From NCBI GenBank assembly GCA_007693435.1, contig REDO01000046.1, positions 1 to 64,000 on the forward strand: DNA of 64,000 bases, given 5' to 3'. A model generated the notes under the pieces. The model saw only the letters and a program-made list of their open reading frames with translations. It had not been told where the DNA came from and searched no databases. Numbering within the stretch: position 1 is the stretch's first letter; each line of letters starts with the position of its first letter. Both the position numbers and the translations under genes were made by a program. This document shows, in pieces, positions 6,820 to 64,000 of the stretch. The DNA comes from Salinarimonadaceae bacterium. GTDB taxonomy: Bacteria > Pseudomonadota > Alphaproteobacteria > Rhizobiales > Beijerinckiaceae.

Positions 6820-6894
6820 TGGTGGGCGCGACAGGGATTGAACCTGTGACCCTTCGCGTGTGAAGCGAATGCTCTCCCGCTGAGCTACGCGCCC
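6820..6894 (-). tRNA. tRNA-Val (anticodon CAC)
   Basis: Read on the minus strand it folds as a full cloverleaf: a 7-bp GGGCGCG/CGCGCCC acceptor stem, a GCTC/GAGC D arm, a TTCGC/GCGAA anticodon stem with loop TTCACAC (anticodon CAC, reading GTG) and an ACAGG/CCTGT T arm with loop TTCAATC. The discriminator is A and the CCA end is encoded, giving 75 bases. A good promoter sits immediately upstream. Confidence 0.95.
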
Positions 6895-57427: not shown

Positions 57428-57895
57428 TCAGTGGCCGCCCTGCGACATCCGCGCGTCGCGCGGCGCGTTGAGGATCTCGTCGAGGCTTTCGGCGATGTGG
57501 CGCGCCTCGTCGTCGCGCAGGCGCAGCAGGAACGGCGGCAGCGAACCCGCCTGCAGCGCGATCACGGCGTGCCCTTCTTCGTCGAGGCCGATATCGATCG
57601 TCGACGAGGTGACGTCGACGAGTTCTCCCTCGATCTCCTCGCCCTCCTCGACTTCGTCGGCGAGCTGGCGCACCAGCTCTTCCGCAAGCTCATCCTCGTC
57701 GAAAGCGTCGCCCCCGAGCTCGGCGTCGAGCCCCTCGTCAACGCTTTCGTCGTCCAGCACTTCAAGCAGCCGCGAGAGGGCGACGACGAGAGTCTTCGCC
57801 GCGCCGGCGTCCATGAGGACCGCGGTAGCCTGATCGTCCTTTTGGAAGGACAGTTGGATCTTGCCGTCTTCGACGGAGAGAGAGATTCCGGCCAT
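57428..57895 (-). CDS. Very acidic hypothetical protein
   Basis: A 155-residue protein I do not recognise. Residues 1-45 look like beta-strands (SLSVEDGKIQLSF, TAVLMDAGAAKTLVVALSRLLEVL). Residues 47-92 are almost continuous Asp/Glu (DDESVDEGLDAEL, EEGEEIEGEL). Residues 93-145 look folded again, ending with a helix, RDDEARHIAESLDEIL. No signal peptide or membrane helix is seen. It is convergent with the oxidoreductase (16 bases apart) and divergent from the crtN operon (245 bases). Codon composition is like its neighbours. Confidence 0.72.
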   Translation of the reverse strand: MAGISLSVEDGKIQLSFQKDDQATAVLMDAGAAKTLVVALSRLLEVLDDESVDEGLDAELGGDAFDEDELAEELVRQLADEVEEGEEIEGELVDVTSSTIDIGLDEEGHAVIALQAGSLPPFLLRLRDDEARHIAESLDEILNAPRDARMSQGGH

Positions 57896-58140
57896 GCCTG
57901 TCTTTCGCACGAATGCAGGTATATGGGAACGGCGTCGCAGCATTTCGACCCCGCTTCGCGCGCAGCGCCTAGGCACGAGGCCGCGCGTGCTCTAACGTCG
58001 CGCCGCGCGGGCCGAAATTTCGCGGCTTTCGTGAACTTTCGGGGTTGTGGTGATCTTTATGGGATGCGCGCGCGTATCTCGGCGGAGTCCGGCTCGGTGA
58101 CGCGACAGACGATCAGGCCGGTTTTCGACGAGAGAGCATA

Positions 58141-59730
58141 ATGAAAAATCCGGACGGCCATTTCCCGCCCAGCGCACTGCGCGAAGACAGCTCCAACGAT
58201 CTCGAGGAAGGCCATGGCGAACGCGTAGCGATAATCGGCGCGGGTCCGGGCGGCCTCGCCGCCGCTATGCTGCTCGCCCGCGCCGGCCTGCGCGTCACCG
58301 TTTACGAGCGCGACGCTGTCGTTGGCGGACGCACCCGCACCATGACCGCACCGGGCGGTTACCGCTTCGATATCGGGCCGACGTTCTTCCTCTATCCGCG
58401 CGTGCTGAACGAGATCTTCGAGGCATGCGGCGAGCGGCTGGAAGATCATGTCGAACTGCGCAAGCTGGACCCGCAATACCACGTGATTTTCGAAGGCGGC
58501 GGCGAAGTGCGCGCGACGCCTGATCTCAAGCGCCTCGCGACCGAGATCGCACGGTTCGCGCCGGCGGATGCGGCCAATATCGAACGCTTCTTCGCCGACA
58601 ACCGCCGCAAGCTCGAACTCTTCCGCCCGATTCTGGAGCGTCCCTTCGGCAGCCGTAGGGACGTGCTCAGCCCCGCCATGTGGCAGGCGCTGCCGATGTT
58701 GAGGCCGTTGTCGAGCGTCGACAAGGACCTGCGGCGCTACTTCGCCGACGCGCGCACCCGTCTCGCCTTCTCCTTCCAGTCGAAATATCTGGGCATGTCG
58801 CCCTTCCAGTGCCCGAGCCTTTTCACGATCCTGTCCTTCCTCGAATACGAGCACGGCGTGTTCCATCCCATGGGCGGCTGCGGAGCGGTGTCCGAGGCGA
58901 TGGCTGCGGCCGCGCGCAGGCTCGGCGCCGACATCCGGCTTAGCGCGGACGTTCAGCGCGTCGTCTACGAGGGCGATCGCGCCGTCGGCGTCGAAGTCGG
59001 CGGCGAGTTCCACCGCACGGACGCCGTCGTCGTCAACGGCGATTTCGGCCACGCGGCGCGCAAGCTGATCCCCGAGCGGCATCGCCCGCGCTGGCGCGAC
59101 GCGAAGATCGACAAGGCGCGCATCTCCTGCTCGACCTTCATGATGTATCTGGGAATCGAGGGCGACGTCGGCGACCTCGAGCATCACACGATCGTTCTCG
59201 CCAAGGACTACGAGCGCAATATCCGCGACATTTCCGAAAACCGCATCCCGAAGGATTTCTCCTTCTACGTCCAGCATCCGGGCCGCACGGACCCCTCGAT
59301 GGCGCCTGCCGGCCACACCAGCCTCTACGTGCTCGTGCCCGTGCCGAACCTGCGCTCGGGGACCGACTGGACATCGTTCGCGCCGCAATTCCGGGCGCTG
59401 ACGCTGGAGCGGCTGAAGTCGCTCGGTCTCTCCGATCTCGAAAGCCGCATCCGCTACGAGCGCGTGATCACGCCGGCGGGCTGGCGCGACGATTTCGGCG
59501 TCAACGAGGGCGCGACCTTCAATCTTGCGCACGACCTGCGCCAGATGCTCTATTTCCGCCCGCACAACCGCTTCGGCGGAGGCGTCTATCTCGTCGGCGG
59601 CGGCACGCATCCGGGCTCGGGCCTGCCGGTGATCTACGAAGGCGCCCGCATCAGCGCGAAGCTGGTGCTGGACGACCTCGCCGAGCGGCGCGGTCGCGTT
59701 AAGCGAATAGCGAGGGCGGCGGCGGAATGA
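58141..59730 (+). CDS. crtN: CrtN-type C30 carotenoid desaturase
   Basis: A 529-residue CrtI/CrtN-family flavoprotein. An N-terminal tail of about 27 residues precedes the FAD-binding GAGPGG motif (33-38) and VVGGRTRTMTAPGGYRFDIGP. The C-terminal carotene-desaturase signature is NEGATFNLAHDLRQM, followed by YLVGGGTHPGSGLP. The neighbours (hpnC, acyltransferase, glycosyltransferase) suggest it dehydrogenates a C30 backbone derived from squalene, as in Methylobacterium, and not phytoene. First gene of the operon; its stop overlaps the DUF2141 gene as ATGA. Which of the two desaturases does which step is inference. Confidence 0.87.
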   Translation: MKNPDGHFPPSALREDSSNDLEEGHGERVAIIGAGPGGLAAAMLLARAGLRVTVYERDAVVGGRTRTMTAPGGYRFDIGPTFFLYPRVLNEIFEACGERLEDHVELRKLDPQYHVIFEGGGEVRATPDLKRLATEIARFAPADAANIERFFADNRRKLELFRPILERPFGSRRDVLSPAMWQALPMLRPLSSVDKDLRRYFADARTRLAFSFQSKYLGMSPFQCPSLFTILSFLEYEHGVFHPMGGCGAVSEAMAAAARRLGADIRLSADVQRVVYEGDRAVGVEVGGEFHRTDAVVVNGDFGHAARKLIPERHRPRWRDAKIDKARISCSTFMMYLGIEGDVGDLEHHTIVLAKDYERNIRDISENRIPKDFSFYVQHPGRTDPSMAPAGHTSLYVLVPVPNLRSGTDWTSFAPQFRALTLERLKSLGLSDLESRIRYERVITPAGWRDDFGVNEGATFNLAHDLRQMLYFRPHNRFGGGVYLVGGGTHPGSGLPVIYEGARISAKLVLDDLAERRGRVKRIARAAAE

Positions 59731-60170
59731 GACATGTCACGGCGATACGCGTCGCTTGCCTCGCCATCGGACTGATCGTCGCAGGCGCCGCCTCGGCGCA
59801 GAACGTGACGCTGACGGTGCGGGTGAGCGACGTCGAATCGAACGAGGGTCAGGTCTATGTCGGCCTTTGCGACCGTGGCCTGGCGGAGAGCGAATGCCTC
59901 GGCGGGCGCTTCCAGCCGGCGCGCCGGGGCGAGATGACCTTCGTCTTCGAGAACATTCCGGCCGGCGTCTACGCGGTCGCCGCCTATCACGACGTGAACG
60001 GGAACGGCGTGCTGGACACGAATTTTCTCGGCATTCCTCGCGAGCCTTACGGGTTCTCCAACGACGCCGGCCGCCGGGGGCCGCCCAATTTCAACAGCGC
60101 TCAGGTTCCCGTGAACCCGCCGCGCGCGACGATCAACGTCCGCCTCGACCGCTTTCGGTTCGGGGGCTGA
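59727..60170 (+). CDS. Exported DUF2141 protein in the carotenoid operon
   Basis: A 147-residue protein with a clear signal peptide (residues 1-25, ending ASA). The mature domain is a small beta-sandwich of the DUF2141 type, with EGQVYVGLCD, IPAGVYAVAAYHDVNGNGVLDTNFLGIPREPYGFSN and a C-terminal strand pair. The D-x-N-x-N-G-x-L-D pattern looks like a calcium-binding loop, although this is inference. It is translationally coupled to crtN by an ATGA overlap and followed 27 bases later by the second desaturase. DUF2141 has no assigned function; its place in the operon suggests a periplasmic or outer-membrane role linked to the pigment. Confidence 0.88.
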   Translation: MRHVTAIRVACLAIGLIVAGAASAQNVTLTVRVSDVESNEGQVYVGLCDRGLAESECLGGRFQPARRGEMTFVFENIPAGVYAVAAYHDVNGNGVLDTNFLGIPREPYGFSNDAGRRGPPNFNSAQVPVNPPRATINVRLDRFRFGG

Positions 60171-60197
60171 TACAGTGAGACGAATGAGGAGCGCGTC

Positions 60198-61733
60198 GTG
60201 AGTGGTTCGACGAAGAAGGTCGCCGTCATCGGCGGTGGTCTGGGCGGTCTGGCGGCGGCCTGCGTGCTCGGAGCGCGGGGGCACGAGGTGACCCTGTTCG
60301 ACAAGAACGACTGGGTCGGCGGCAAGGCGGCGGTGTTCTCCGAGGGCGGCTTCCGCTTCGACATGGGCCCGACGATCCTGACCGTGCCGCGGGTGCTGGA
60401 GCGCATCTTCGCCGAGGCGGACCGCGACATGTCCGACTATCTCGACCTGCGCCGCCTCGATCCGCAATGGCGCTGCTTCTTCGAGGGCGGGGCGAGCGTC
60501 GATCTCGTCGAGAACGTCGACGCCATGGCCGCCGACATGGACCGCTTCGCGCCGGGAGTCGGCGCCGGCGAGGGCTACAAGAAGTTCCAGCGCATGTCCG
60601 AGCACCTGCACGGCGTCTCCGAGCGCTTCTTCTTCTGGAAGGCGGTCGAGGATCTGTTCGACACGATCAACGTGCGCGCCAACCTCAATCCCACGACGCT
60701 GCGCGATGTGATGAGCCTGCGCATGGGCCAGACCGTCGCCGGCACGATCCGTTCCCACGTCAAGGACGAGCGCCTGTCGCAGATGCTCGACCACTTCACG
60801 CAATATGTCGGCTCGAACCCCTACGGCTCGCCGGCGGTGCTGTGCGCCATCGCGCATATGCAGTCGGCCGACGGCGTCTGGTACCCGATGGGCGGCACGC
60901 GCTCCGTCGCGGAGGCGCTGGCGAAGCTCGCCGGCGAGCTCGGCGCGAAGCTGCGCCCCTCCACCGACATCGTCGGGCTGGACATCCGCAACGGCCGCGT
61001 CGGCGGCGTCAGGACGGCCTCGGGCGACACCGAGACCTTCGAGGCCGTCGTCTCGAACATGGATTCGATCCGCACCTATCGCGAACTCGTCGGCGGCGAG
61101 ACGGGCGCGCGCTACGACCGCAAGGGCTTCGAGCCGGCCTGCTCGGGCGTCGTGCTCTATCTCGGCCTGAACAAGCGCTACGACCACATCCTGCACCACG
61201 ACTTCGTCTTCTCGCGCGATGCGCATGAGGAGTTCGACTACATCTACAAGCGCGGCGAGCCGGCGCCCGATCCGACCGCCTATCTCTGCGCGCCCTCTTT
61301 CACCGATCCGTCGGTGGCGCCGGAAGGCGGCGAGGCGCTCTATGTGCTCGTCCACACGCCGTATCTGCGCCCGCACCATGATTGGTCGAAGATGTTTCCG
61401 ACCTATCGCCAGACCATCCTCGACAAGCTCAAGCGCACCGCCGGCATGGAGGATATCGAGGAGCGCATCGTCGTCGAGCGCCACCTCACGCCGCAGGATA
61501 TCCACGAGCGCTACAAGGTGCTCAACGGCGCGATCTACGGGCTGGCGAGCCACGGCCGCTTCCTCGGCGCCTTCAAGCCGGGCAACCGCTCGCGCGACGT
61601 GCAGGGTCTTTATCTCGCGGGCGGCGCGGCCCATCCGGGGCCGGGCATGCCGATGGTCATGATGTCCGGCTGGATCGCGGCCGACGCGCTCGATCAGGAC
61701 GCCCGCGGCGACGGGCTCAAGCGCGCCTCGTGA
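60198..61733 (+). CDS. Second CrtN/CrtP-type carotenoid desaturase or oxygenase
   Basis: A 511-residue CrtI-family flavoprotein. FAD motif GGGLGG (12-17), WVGGKAAVFSEGGFRFDMGPT, and the C-terminal YLAGGAAHPGPGMPMVMMSGW are clear. It is only distantly alike to the CrtN upstream, so it probably performs a different step, either further dehydrogenation or terminal methyl oxidation as CrtP (CrtNb) does for 4,4'-diaponeurosporene. The end feature that separates oxygenases from desaturases cannot be judged by eye. The start is a GTG at 60198 with GAGGAG seven bases upstream. Confidence 0.85.
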   Translation: MSGSTKKVAVIGGGLGGLAAACVLGARGHEVTLFDKNDWVGGKAAVFSEGGFRFDMGPTILTVPRVLERIFAEADRDMSDYLDLRRLDPQWRCFFEGGASVDLVENVDAMAADMDRFAPGVGAGEGYKKFQRMSEHLHGVSERFFFWKAVEDLFDTINVRANLNPTTLRDVMSLRMGQTVAGTIRSHVKDERLSQMLDHFTQYVGSNPYGSPAVLCAIAHMQSADGVWYPMGGTRSVAEALAKLAGELGAKLRPSTDIVGLDIRNGRVGGVRTASGDTETFEAVVSNMDSIRTYRELVGGETGARYDRKGFEPACSGVVLYLGLNKRYDHILHHDFVFSRDAHEEFDYIYKRGEPAPDPTAYLCAPSFTDPSVAPEGGEALYVLVHTPYLRPHHDWSKMFPTYRQTILDKLKRTAGMEDIEERIVVERHLTPQDIHERYKVLNGAIYGLASHGRFLGAFKPGNRSRDVQGLYLAGGAAHPGPGMPMVMMSGWIAADALDQDARGDGLKRAS

Positions 61734-61749
61734 CCGGGGCCAATGGGGG

Positions 61750-62616
61750 ATGAAACCGGGGGTGGAAGTGGGCAAGGACACGACACGCGCAGCGACGCTG
61801 GAGCGCATCGCCGCACGGCTCCCGGCGGGCGAGCGTCCGACGCTGCGCCGAAAGGCGCGCGTTTTCGGCTTCTTCTCCCGCTATTTCCATCGCTATTTCC
61901 GCCGCCACATGAACGCGCTCCGACTCGCCCGCTGGGGCGAGCCCGTCATTCCCGAAGGCGCGGGGCCGATCGTTCTCTACACAACCCACCCGGCCTGGTG
62001 GGACGCGGCGGTCTATATCCTGCTCGCCGACAAGCATTTCGCGAATTTCGCGAATTTCGCGCCGATCGACGCCGAGATGCTGAAGAAATACGGCTTCTTC
62101 GGGCGCATGGGCGCTTACGGCGTCGATCTGGAGAGCCCGCGCGGCGCCGCCGACTTCCTCGCCGCGAGCGCCGATATCCTCGCCCGCGAGGACAGCGCGA
62201 TTTGGGTCGCCGCGCAGGGGCGCTTCATGGACGTTCGCGCCCGCCCGCTCGACCTGCGGCCGGGGATCGCGCGCCTCGCCGAGCTCGCGCCGCACGCGGT
62301 CTTCATCCCGCTCGCCATCGAATACGCGTTCTGGGAGCAGCGCGGCGGTGAGGCTTTCGTCGCCTATGGCGAGCCGATACGTGGCGAGGATCTCGCCGCG
62401 ATGGAGCGCGAGGATCGGCGTCTCCATCTCGAGAACAAGCTCACGGCGATCGCCGACCGGCTCAGCGCGGACGTGATCTCCCGCGAACCGGAGCGTTTCG
62501 TCTCCCTGCTCGAAGGCGAGGCCGGCGTCGGCGGCGTGTTCGACCTCTTCAAGCGCCTCGTCGCGATGTTGCGCGGCAAGCGCTATGATCCAGCACACGG
62601 AAAGCGCGATTCATGA
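61750..62616 (+). CDS. PlsC-like acyltransferase of the carotenoid operon
   Basis: A 288-residue protein of the lysophospholipid acyltransferase superfamily. The catalytic HX4D motif is HPAWWD (residues 80-85), with a basic, aromatic stretch before it (FFSRYFHRYFRRHM) and the substrate-site segment WVAAQGRFMDVR, where E/PEGTR would stand in PlsC. In this operon the probable role is to acylate a glycosylated carotenoid, as CrtO does in staphyloxanthin synthesis, though the proteins are not alike in sequence. A 9-base tandem repeat encodes NFANFA (about residues 97-103). Its stop overlaps the glycosyltransferase start. Confidence 0.82.
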   Translation: MKPGVEVGKDTTRAATLERIAARLPAGERPTLRRKARVFGFFSRYFHRYFRRHMNALRLARWGEPVIPEGAGPIVLYTTHPAWWDAAVYILLADKHFANFANFAPIDAEMLKKYGFFGRMGAYGVDLESPRGAADFLAASADILAREDSAIWVAAQGRFMDVRARPLDLRPGIARLAELAPHAVFIPLAIEYAFWEQRGGEAFVAYGEPIRGEDLAAMEREDRRLHLENKLTAIADRLSADVISREPERFVSLLEGEAGVGGVFDLFKRLVAMLRGKRYDPAHGKRDS

Positions 62617-63731
62617 CCCTTCTGGCCACTATCGCGTTCTGGCTCGCCGCCTTCGCCGCTGTCATGGGGGCGATGAACCTGCTCCTCATGCGCACGCCGC
62701 GCAACCGCGCGGTCGCTGACGGAACGCTGGTCTCGATCCTTATCCCCGCCCGCAACGAGGAGGCCAATATCCGCACTGCGCTGGAAAGCGCCGTGTCGAG
62801 CCTCGGCGTTCCGATCGAGATCGTCGTCATGGACGACGGCTCGACCGACGCGACGGCGGCGATCGTCGCGGAATTCGCCGCGCGCGATCCGCGCGTGCGC
62901 CTCGAGCAGGCCCCGTCCCTGCCCGCCGGCTGGACCGGCAAGGTCCATGCCTGCCAGCGCCTCGCGGACGCCGCGCGCGGGACGCATCTGCTCTTCATCG
63001 ACGCCGACGTGCGCCTCTCCCCCGATTGCGCCGCGAGCCTCGCCGCCCATGTTCAGGCGAAGGGCCTCGCCATGGCGAGCGGCGTGCCGCGCCAGATCAC
63101 GCGCAGTTTCGGCGAAATCCTCACCGTGCCGATGATCAACTTCCTGATGCTCGGCTACCTGCCGGTGCTCGGCATGCGGCTTTCCCCCCTGCCCGGCTTC
63201 GGCGCGGCATGCGGTCAGCTCGTCATGGTCGAGCGCGGCGCCTATGACGCGATCGGCGGGCACGGCGCGATCCGCGACAGGCTGCACGACGGCATCCAGC
63301 TCGCCCGCCGCTTCCGCAGCGAGGGCCGCATGACCGACGTGGTCGCCGGCCACGACCTCGCCTCCTGCCGCATGTATCGCGATTTCGACGAGGCCTGGGA
63401 CGGCTTCATCAAGAACGCGCATGAGGGCATGGCGACGCCGGCGCAATTGCCGGTCTGGACGGTGTTGCTCGGCGGCGGCCACGTGCTGCCGTTCCTGCTC
63501 GCCCCGTTCGCGCTGTTCGGGCTCGCGCCCGCGACGACGGTGTTCGGCGCGATCGCGCTCTCGCTGGCCCTGCGCGCCGCGATCACTTTGCGCACGCGCG
63601 AAAGCCTTCTCGCAATCCCCCTGCACCCCTTCAGCGTCGTCGTCGCGCTGGCGATCCAGTGGTCCTCGCTCATGCGCGCGCGGCGCGGCCGGCCGGCCGG
63701 CTGGAAGGGGCGCGTCTATCCGGCGGAGTGA
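62613..63731 (+). CDS. Family-2 glycosyltransferase (CrtQ-like)
   Basis: A 372-residue membrane glycosyltransferase: one N-terminal helix (residues 3-25), a GT-A domain with SILIPARNEEANI, VVMDDGSTDATAAI and the metal-binding DADV motif, and two or three C-terminal helices (about 275-350). The overall layout matches CrtQ, which transfers a sugar to the carboxyl of a C30 carotenoid acid in staphyloxanthin-type pathways. The sugar is unknown. The ATG overlaps the acyltransferase stop (ATGA), with GGAAAG upstream, and hpnC starts four bases after the stop. Confidence 0.86.
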   Translation: MTLLATIAFWLAAFAAVMGAMNLLLMRTPRNRAVADGTLVSILIPARNEEANIRTALESAVSSLGVPIEIVVMDDGSTDATAAIVAEFAARDPRVRLEQAPSLPAGWTGKVHACQRLADAARGTHLLFIDADVRLSPDCAASLAAHVQAKGLAMASGVPRQITRSFGEILTVPMINFLMLGYLPVLGMRLSPLPGFGAACGQLVMVERGAYDAIGGHGAIRDRLHDGIQLARRFRSEGRMTDVVAGHDLASCRMYRDFDEAWDGFIKNAHEGMATPAQLPVWTVLLGGGHVLPFLLAPFALFGLAPATTVFGAIALSLALRAAITLRTRESLLAIPLHPFSVVVALAIQWSSLMRARRGRPAGWKGRVYPAE

Positions 63732-63735
63732 GGCG

Positions 63736-64000
63736 ATGGGCCGGAGCGCCGCTCTGGAGGCAGACGCGCCGGCCGCGGGCAAGACGCATCGCGACGAGGA
63801 TTTCCCCGTCGCCAGCCTGTTCATCGCGAAGCCTCTGCGCGGCGCGGTCCTCGCCTTTTACCGCTATGTGCGCGCCGCCGACGATGTAGCCGATGACGGG
63901 CGCCTCTCGCCCGACGAAAAGCTCGGCCGGCTCGACGCGATGGAGCGCGCGCTTCTCGACGAGGGCACGCACGATCCGCTCGCCTCGGCGCTTCGGCGCG
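63736..64000 (+). CDS. hpnC: HpnC, squalene synthase component (5' part, cut by window edge)
   Basis: The first 88 residues of a trans-isoprenyl diphosphate synthase of the squalene/phytoene synthase type. DEDFPVAS near residue 21 is typical of HpnC, and the first aspartate-rich motif AADDVADD (47-54) binds the diphosphate through Mg2+. HpnC converts presqualene diphosphate, made by HpnD, to hydroxysqualene, which HpnE reduces to squalene. hpnD and hpnE are expected just beyond the window. CrtM/CrtB-type synthases are the alternative, but the FPVAS segment favours HpnC. It is the sixth gene of the operon. Confidence 0.85.
   Translation, partial: MGRSAALEADAPAAGKTHRDEDFPVASLFIAKPLRGAVLAFYRYVRAADDVADDGRLSPDEKLGRLDAMERALLDEGTHDPLASALRR

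Follow-up and report, generated by a model that had tools for sequence, protein, structure and literature searches.

Acylated C30 carotenoid glycosides have reportedly been known to chemists since the 1970s (Pseudomonas rhodos, Kleinig et al. 1979). The C30 genes of Methylobacterium extorquens AM1 are described as META1p3663 (glycosyltransferase, GT), META1p3664 (acyltransferase, AT), META1p3665 (crtP) and META1p3670 (crtN) (Mo et al. 2023, PMC10448405). Deletions of the GT and AT genes are reported there to give the masses of the unglycosylated and unacylated acid, respectively, and complementation restored the product, so the glycosyl and acyl steps are experimentally anchored for M. extorquens. 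The staphyloxanthin pathway comprises CrtM, CrtN, CrtP, AldH, CrtQ and CrtO, with roles as given in the same paper, which describes a CrtO probe as detecting no homologue in M. extorquens. We analyzed 64,000 nucleotides of Salinarimonadaceae bacterium (GCA_007693435.1, contig REDO01000046.1, positions 1 to 64,000; hereafter the window) and detected at the right end a gene run that very probably constitutes a complete operon for producing an acylated glycoside of a C30 carotenoid via the squalene route.

The plus strand from 58141 to the window end holds five complete genes and the 5' part of a sixth, with two 4-base overlaps and gaps of 27, 16 and 4 bases (Table 1), in agreement with an earlier note on this DNA, which had described genes on one strand with overlaps or gaps of at most 27 bases. 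They are probably transcribed as one unit. The source contig, at 66,834 bases, reaches past the window end. The earlier note had named the sixth gene hpnC; this holds for the HpnC half but not for hpnC alone, as the frame continues into an HpnD half. Both flavoproteins and the family 2 glycosyltransferase (GT2) were placed by Pfam and NCBIfam, DUF2141 by Pfam alone.

Like M. extorquens AM1, the locus has the same enzyme set, with GT, AT and crtP together and squalene from HpnCDE. In M. extorquens AM1, hpnCDE belong to a separate locus that also holds shc, and locus numbers place crtN away from crtP; here all genes including hpnCDE stand in a single run, with hpnC joined to hpnD in one gene, and a cyclase was not detected. 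The comparison of tailoring sequences was drawn via the congener M. gregans. The acyltransferase is 60% identical and syntenic to the M. gregans protein adjoining GT2 and crtP, and the GT2 is 55% identical and syntenic to its M. gregans counterpart; in M. gregans (L162) GT2, AT and crtP stand together in the same order as in the window. The crtP-acyltransferase-GT2 cassette was also detected in six genomes of the family defined below (L173, L174, L176, L178, L179, L180). The logic of desaturation, oxidation, glycosylation and acylation is shared with staphyloxanthin, to which the earlier note had likened the operon. The likeness stands for the logic and fails for the parts: squalene comes via HpnCDE and not CrtM, there is no AldH in the operon, and the acyltransferase is of the Methylobacterium kind, the tailoring genes matching the Methylobacterium pathway described in PMC10448405.

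The operon is therefore a member of the already known squalene-route C30 carotenoid pathway, compact in layout and ordinary in kind; its useful parts are the layout, the fusion clade and DUF2141. It would provide a one-run gene set leading from farnesyl diphosphate (FPP) to the complete glycoside with its acyl group.

In a tree of 86 proteins, built by a quick method, CrtD, C30-operon CrtP, CrtI and C30-operon CrtN separate with supports of 97 to 100. Assignment of rows to CrtI and CrtD is based on the crtI_fam score, and M. gregans represents Methylobacterium, CrtN and CrtP of M. extorquens and Staphylococcus being left out. The window's CrtN and CrtP fall in the C30 groups with M. gregans and Microvirga proteins, outside CrtI and CrtD; the desaturase tree proposed as a check in the earlier note thus places neither protein with the C40 enzymes. 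Identity to M. gregans is 81% for CrtP and 68% for CrtN. Together with the syntenic GT2-AT-crtP cassette, the shared clades bear out the relationship to Methylobacterium C30 pathways suggested before. The source genome has two CrtI-family proteins above the curated cut-off, both in this operon. Several CrtI rows of the tree have an adjoining CrtB-like match, and the M. gregans CrtI adjoins a protein with 356.8 bits on a CrtB model, below the 500 set as its cut-off.

The hpnC-hpnD frame is stop-free from 63736 to 65415, with an HpnC half (233.8 bits) followed by an HpnD half (257.5 bits), and hpnE comes next, giving the C-D-E gene order of the squalene route. Extension to the right, suggested earlier as a check for hpnD and hpnE, detected both, the former fused to hpnC and the latter overlapping the end of the fusion. 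HpnC, HpnD and HpnE are the best match in each case despite divergence, and judging by sequence the fused HpnCD and HpnE are likely to work like HpnCDE, without being claimed as equivalogs. D49, D50, D53, D166 and D170 in the HpnC half and D327, D331, D445 and D449 in the HpnD half are invariant in 32 fused proteins, and by reading they appear to be both Asp-rich motifs of each synthase half. A structural model of HpnCD (predicted local distance difference test, pLDDT, 92; predicted template modelling score, pTM, 0.90) suggests that the two halves are packed in a fixed manner; the PDB search with HpnCD returned HpnC and CrtM as single domains and no chain matching across both halves.

An assembly error was ruled out as the source of the fusion: the fused proteins of nine genomes, one from each, can be aligned over their full length and have linkers of similar size. 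The join is without stop in 75 of 80 loci, all fetched with fused proteins as the query, so this count is not a frequency. The fusion is not a novelty: fused hpnCD is described for subdivision 2 Acidobacteria, some Actinobacteria and Rhodospirillum centenum (PMC5462960). As in subdivision 2 Acidobacteria, hpnC and hpnD share one reading frame; unlike the fusion described in that hopanoid study, the fusion clade of the window occurs mostly in C30 carotenoid operons.

Table 1. Genes of the predicted C30 carotenoid operon, in positions of contig REDO01000046.1
Feature	Position	Strand	Details
crtN-type C30 desaturase (predicted)	58141-59730	+	529 amino acids; crtI_fam 505.7 bits; C30-operon CrtN clade, support 100
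DUF2141 protein	59727-60170	+	147 amino acids; ATGA overlap with crtN; PF09912 99.7 bits (gathering cut-off 24.4)
crtP-type flavoprotein (predicted C30 terminal oxidase)	60198-61733	+	511 amino acids, GTG start; gap 27; crtI_fam 409.4 bits; C30-operon CrtP clade, support 97-99
HX4D acyltransferase (predicted)	61750-62616	+	288 amino acids; gap 16; HX4D motif H-P-A-W-W-D by reading
GT2 glycosyltransferase (predicted)	62613-63731	+	372 amino acids; ATGA overlap with acyltransferase; PF00535 81.6 bits
hpnC-hpnD fusion	63736-65415	+	559 codons; gap 4 after GT2; window holds 63736-64000 only
hpnE	65415-66662	+	beyond window; overlaps hpnCD end; HpnE 258.5 bits
ispH start	66659-66834	+	beyond window; ATGA overlap with hpnE; cut by contig end; TIGR00216 52.7 bits

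According to the proposed pathway, the HpnD half would convert two FPP to presqualene diphosphate, the HpnC half would convert this to hydroxysqualene, and HpnE would take off the hydroxyl group to yield squalene. CrtN would then desaturate squalene towards a diapolycopene chromophore and CrtP would oxidize terminal methyl groups, the acid being completed by an aldehyde dehydrogenase encoded elsewhere or by CrtP itself. GT2 would glycosylate the carboxyl end and the HX4D acyltransferase would then link a fatty acid to that sugar, while IspH at the operon end may serve precursor supply. The operon product is predicted to be a pink C30 carotenoid to which a sugar and a fatty acid are attached, of the type 4-(acyl-glucosyl)-4,4'-diapolycopene-dioic acid.

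Other tailoring of the same C30 core is possible, if rather unlikely: a diglucosyl ester, an unacylated glycoside or a methyl ester, or an acyltransferase serving another lipid. Roseococcus thiosulfatophilus, with a homologous operon (a record named Roseococcus thiosulfatophilus RB-3 carries it, L078), is described with the diglucosyl ester, which together with the C30 carotenedioate is reviewed as taking part in light transfer (PMC12654162), and M. extorquens PA1 is reported to have the GT and AT genes, yet different C30 carotenoids (PMC10448405). These cases are countered by the M. extorquens deletion masses cited above and by the locus itself, where AT and GT2 overlap by 4 bases; both genes are kept between crtP and hpnC in 59 of 80 loci. 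Several Microvirga operons include a methyltransferase gene, as another tailoring would have it; the window's operon is without one. This Microvirga gene (L062:13648-14736, L066:3283-4356 and others) lies between crtN/DUF2141 and crtP, and its product is a candidate for the formation of C30 carotenoid methyl esters, like the activity proposed for M. extorquens PA1 in PMC10448405.

The reading as a hopanoid operon, with an HpnB-like GT2 and squalene feeding hopanoids, is very improbable. HpnB is indeed the best NCBIfam match of the GT2, with 126.6 bits (cut-off 379), hpnCDE belong to hopanoid synthesis elsewhere, and five of the six operon-bearing Roseomonadaceae-type genomes tested have a cyclase; against this, no cyclase was found in the source genome nor in eight of nine same-family fusion-bearing relatives tested, the exception being G408. 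A C40 pathway, with the flavoproteins as phytoene-converting CrtI and CrtD and HpnCDE as mere neighbours, is already contradicted and hardly credible: both flavoproteins exceed the broad crtI_fam cut-off, but their clades are separate from CrtI and CrtD, no CrtB was recognized in the source genome, and hpnCD is linked to the crt genes in 59 of 80 loci.

The fate of squalene was examined through the synthases and cyclases of the genomes. The source genome has three SQS_PSY matches: the two halves of hpnCD, which are HpnC-like and HpnD-like, and a further protein (C50), a paralogue that reaches 133.6 bits on HpnD and no more than 47 on any CrtB model, and in which the DDxxD motif is missing by reading. 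Among these matches no CrtM (one-step dehydrosqualene synthase) and no recognizable CrtB or C40 synthase was detected, and with hpnCD and hpnE in the operon the HpnC squalene route instead of CrtM, as proposed in the earlier note, is retained. No rival use of squalene was found in the assembly. No squalene-hopene cyclase was detected in 10 of 17 genomes tested (G000, the source, and G325, G360, G312, G378, G349, G454, G358, G441, G488), and one was found in G408, G484, G485, G486, G487, G489 and G490. In five of the latter (G485, G486, G487, G489, G490) the fused HpnC/HpnD is the sole pair seen, other matches looking like CrtB or a short paralogue, and therefore the fused pair may serve both hopanoids and carotenoids there. 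Near its cyclase, G408 (Microvirga puerhi) carries another HpnD that is unfused, and the HpnD half of its fused HpnCD (L064:537-2192) looks decayed, with the R-D of the second motif lost by reading. Genomes with one squalene source and no detected cyclase would offer a setting for C30 carotenoids without hopanoids.

Several points weigh against the acylated C30 glycoside operon. In the desaturase tree the CrtN clade is joined to CrtI (99) through long branches, rows L132 and L208 are flagged as long (the CrtP of Rhodospirillales bacterium TMPK1 and the CrtD row L208 are long branches), and Staphylococcus CrtN and CrtP are missing. The NCBIfam equivalog cut-offs were narrowly missed by HpnC (233.8 against 250.45 bits), HpnD (257.5 against 278.6) and HpnE (258.5 against 283.05), and the acyltransferase is without any Pfam or NCBIfam match. 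Among the genes from 58141 to the contig end there is no aldehyde dehydrogenase, the rest of the genome not having been searched for one; the acid-forming step is likewise without an assigned gene in M. extorquens (PMC10448405). The completeness of the source assembly is 97%, and a gene that was not found may therefore still exist. The Microvirga genome G408 has a cyclase, and in a published PSI-BLAST table (PMC12583986) Salinarimonas seems to have one cyclase hit and Microvirga four, with 3 and 45 hits, respectively, for the first-listed protein, suggesting that the cyclase is rare rather than absent in these genera.

The spread of the fusion was analyzed in a family as grouped by the genome tool (199 genomes), which contains Microvirga and presumably Salinarimonas, placed by NCBI in two families of Hyphomicrobiales. 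Matches to the fused protein occurred in 139 of 199 family genomes. In 11 of them they cover most of its length in one open frame; besides the window's genome these comprise two congeners, three genomes of g139, four of g150 and a g145 genome whose HpnC half contains undetermined bases. Genus g150 is Microvirga and g139 is probably Salinarimonas, in which case the window's genus would be a near relative. A locus scan queried with nine aligned fused proteins confirmed at least 239 candidates, and the best 80 loci were kept. In 59 of these, crtN, crtP, AT, GT2, hpnC and hpnD occur in order on one strand (gaps between genes being outside that count), and because the same order recurs so often, the arrangement is not a chance one; it is common to bacteria such as Roseococcus and Microvirga. 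Some of the remaining fused loci are cut by contig ends, and four (L112, L114, L124, L131) had no crt gene matches in 10 kb upstream.

In a tree of 71 concatenated HpnC and HpnD proteins, without outgroup, 33 fused rows of Hyphomicrobiales and Acetobacterales form one clade (100/99), including L131 (no crt genes nearby) and L064 (cut by contig end), and the fused TMPK1 protein joins next. The unfused HpnC and HpnD of M. gregans and other relatives are placed elsewhere, and further fusions occur in Niveispirillum/Oleisolibacter/AAP38 and in G422. The pattern of the 33-row clade suggests operon transfer between orders or loss in many lines. A metagenome-assembled genome (MAG) labelled Frigidibacter (L145) carries an operon very near that of Falsiroseomonas tokyonensis in the trees, which is either recent transfer or a binning error.

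DUF2141, encoded between the two desaturase genes, has an N-terminal hydrophobic stretch, signal-peptide-like by reading, followed by a beta-sandwich, confidently predicted in the AlphaFold2 model (pLDDT 90, pTM 0.81). Foldseek gave no match under E 0.001, and no sequence relative was found in the PDB up to E 1. The best VIA-align Z scores were 8.0 (secretin pilot protein 2yjl) and 7.9 (4q1z), then adhesins and starch-binding domains; the structural neighbours are a mixed field, and therefore no function follows from them.

Within the family DUF2141 was detected in 25 of 199 genomes and C30 CrtP (E 1e-140 or better) in 23, with DUF2141 in 20 of the 23 genomes with CrtP versus 5 of the 176 without. 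The Fisher p is 6e-20 by genome, a value inflated by related genomes, and 1e-5 by genus (7/7 versus 4/36), tying this uncharacterized secreted family statistically to C30 carotenoid genes. C30 CrtP occurs without DUF2141 in G174, G272 and G326, and DUF2141 without C30 CrtP in G310, G335, G337, G346 and G419. DUF2141 adjoins crtN in 16 of the 25 genomes, i.e. 16 of the 20 with CrtP, sharing its strand in 14 and lying on the opposite one in G373 and G363; no desaturase match was seen in the fetched flanks of G441, G454 and G433, and the G389 gene is near a contig end. The five genomes without C30 CrtP (L164-L168) have more divergent DUF2141 proteins, 25-29% identical to the window's, and no desaturase match within the 4 to 7 kb fetched to either side. 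The idea that the operon requires DUF2141 was rejected: of 80 loci, 8 have it in the fetched flanking sequence, which extends to 10 kb at most and is often shorter. It is carried by 14 of 35 genomes tested, and its absence from 19 of the 26 Roseomonadaceae-type genomes among these (Roseomonadaceae and Acetobacteraceae records, an uncultured Craurococcus and the Frigidibacter MAG; 7 carry it) speaks against a general role. Rhodospirillales bacterium TMPK1 (L213, L132) has two DUF2141 genes, one directly before a crtN homologue and one in the crtP-hpnCD locus.

DUF2141 is also described beside crtG in Sphingomonadales (PMC5989583; PMC9241875), likewise adjoining a carotenoid gene, of the C40 kind there and C30 here. 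An ABC (ATP-binding cassette) transporter pair follows crtN-DUF2141 in two of the four loci listed gene by gene, M. gregans (L162:12725-15009, ABC ATPase and ABC-2 permease by Pfam) and G472 (L175:7422-9586, by reading); no such pair was seen by eye in L176 and L178. The pair is a possible pigment exporter. We infer that DUF2141 is a secreted accessory protein in the handling of the finished polar carotenoid. A more specific role, which we regard as doubtful, would be that of a periplasmic carrier or membrane-placing factor, receiving glycosylated C30 carotenoids (C40 carotenoids beside crtG) and aiding their transfer through or release from the inner membrane, an ABC exporter being encoded alongside in some Methylobacterium-type loci; if true, it would be the first function for the DUF2141 family.

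On the minus strand, a gene at 57428-57976 is divergent from crtN, and a relative lies upstream of crtN also in L056 and L057. ARAGORN and Rfam (gathering scores) detected a single RNA gene in the window, a tRNA-Val (cac) at 6820-6894 on the minus strand.

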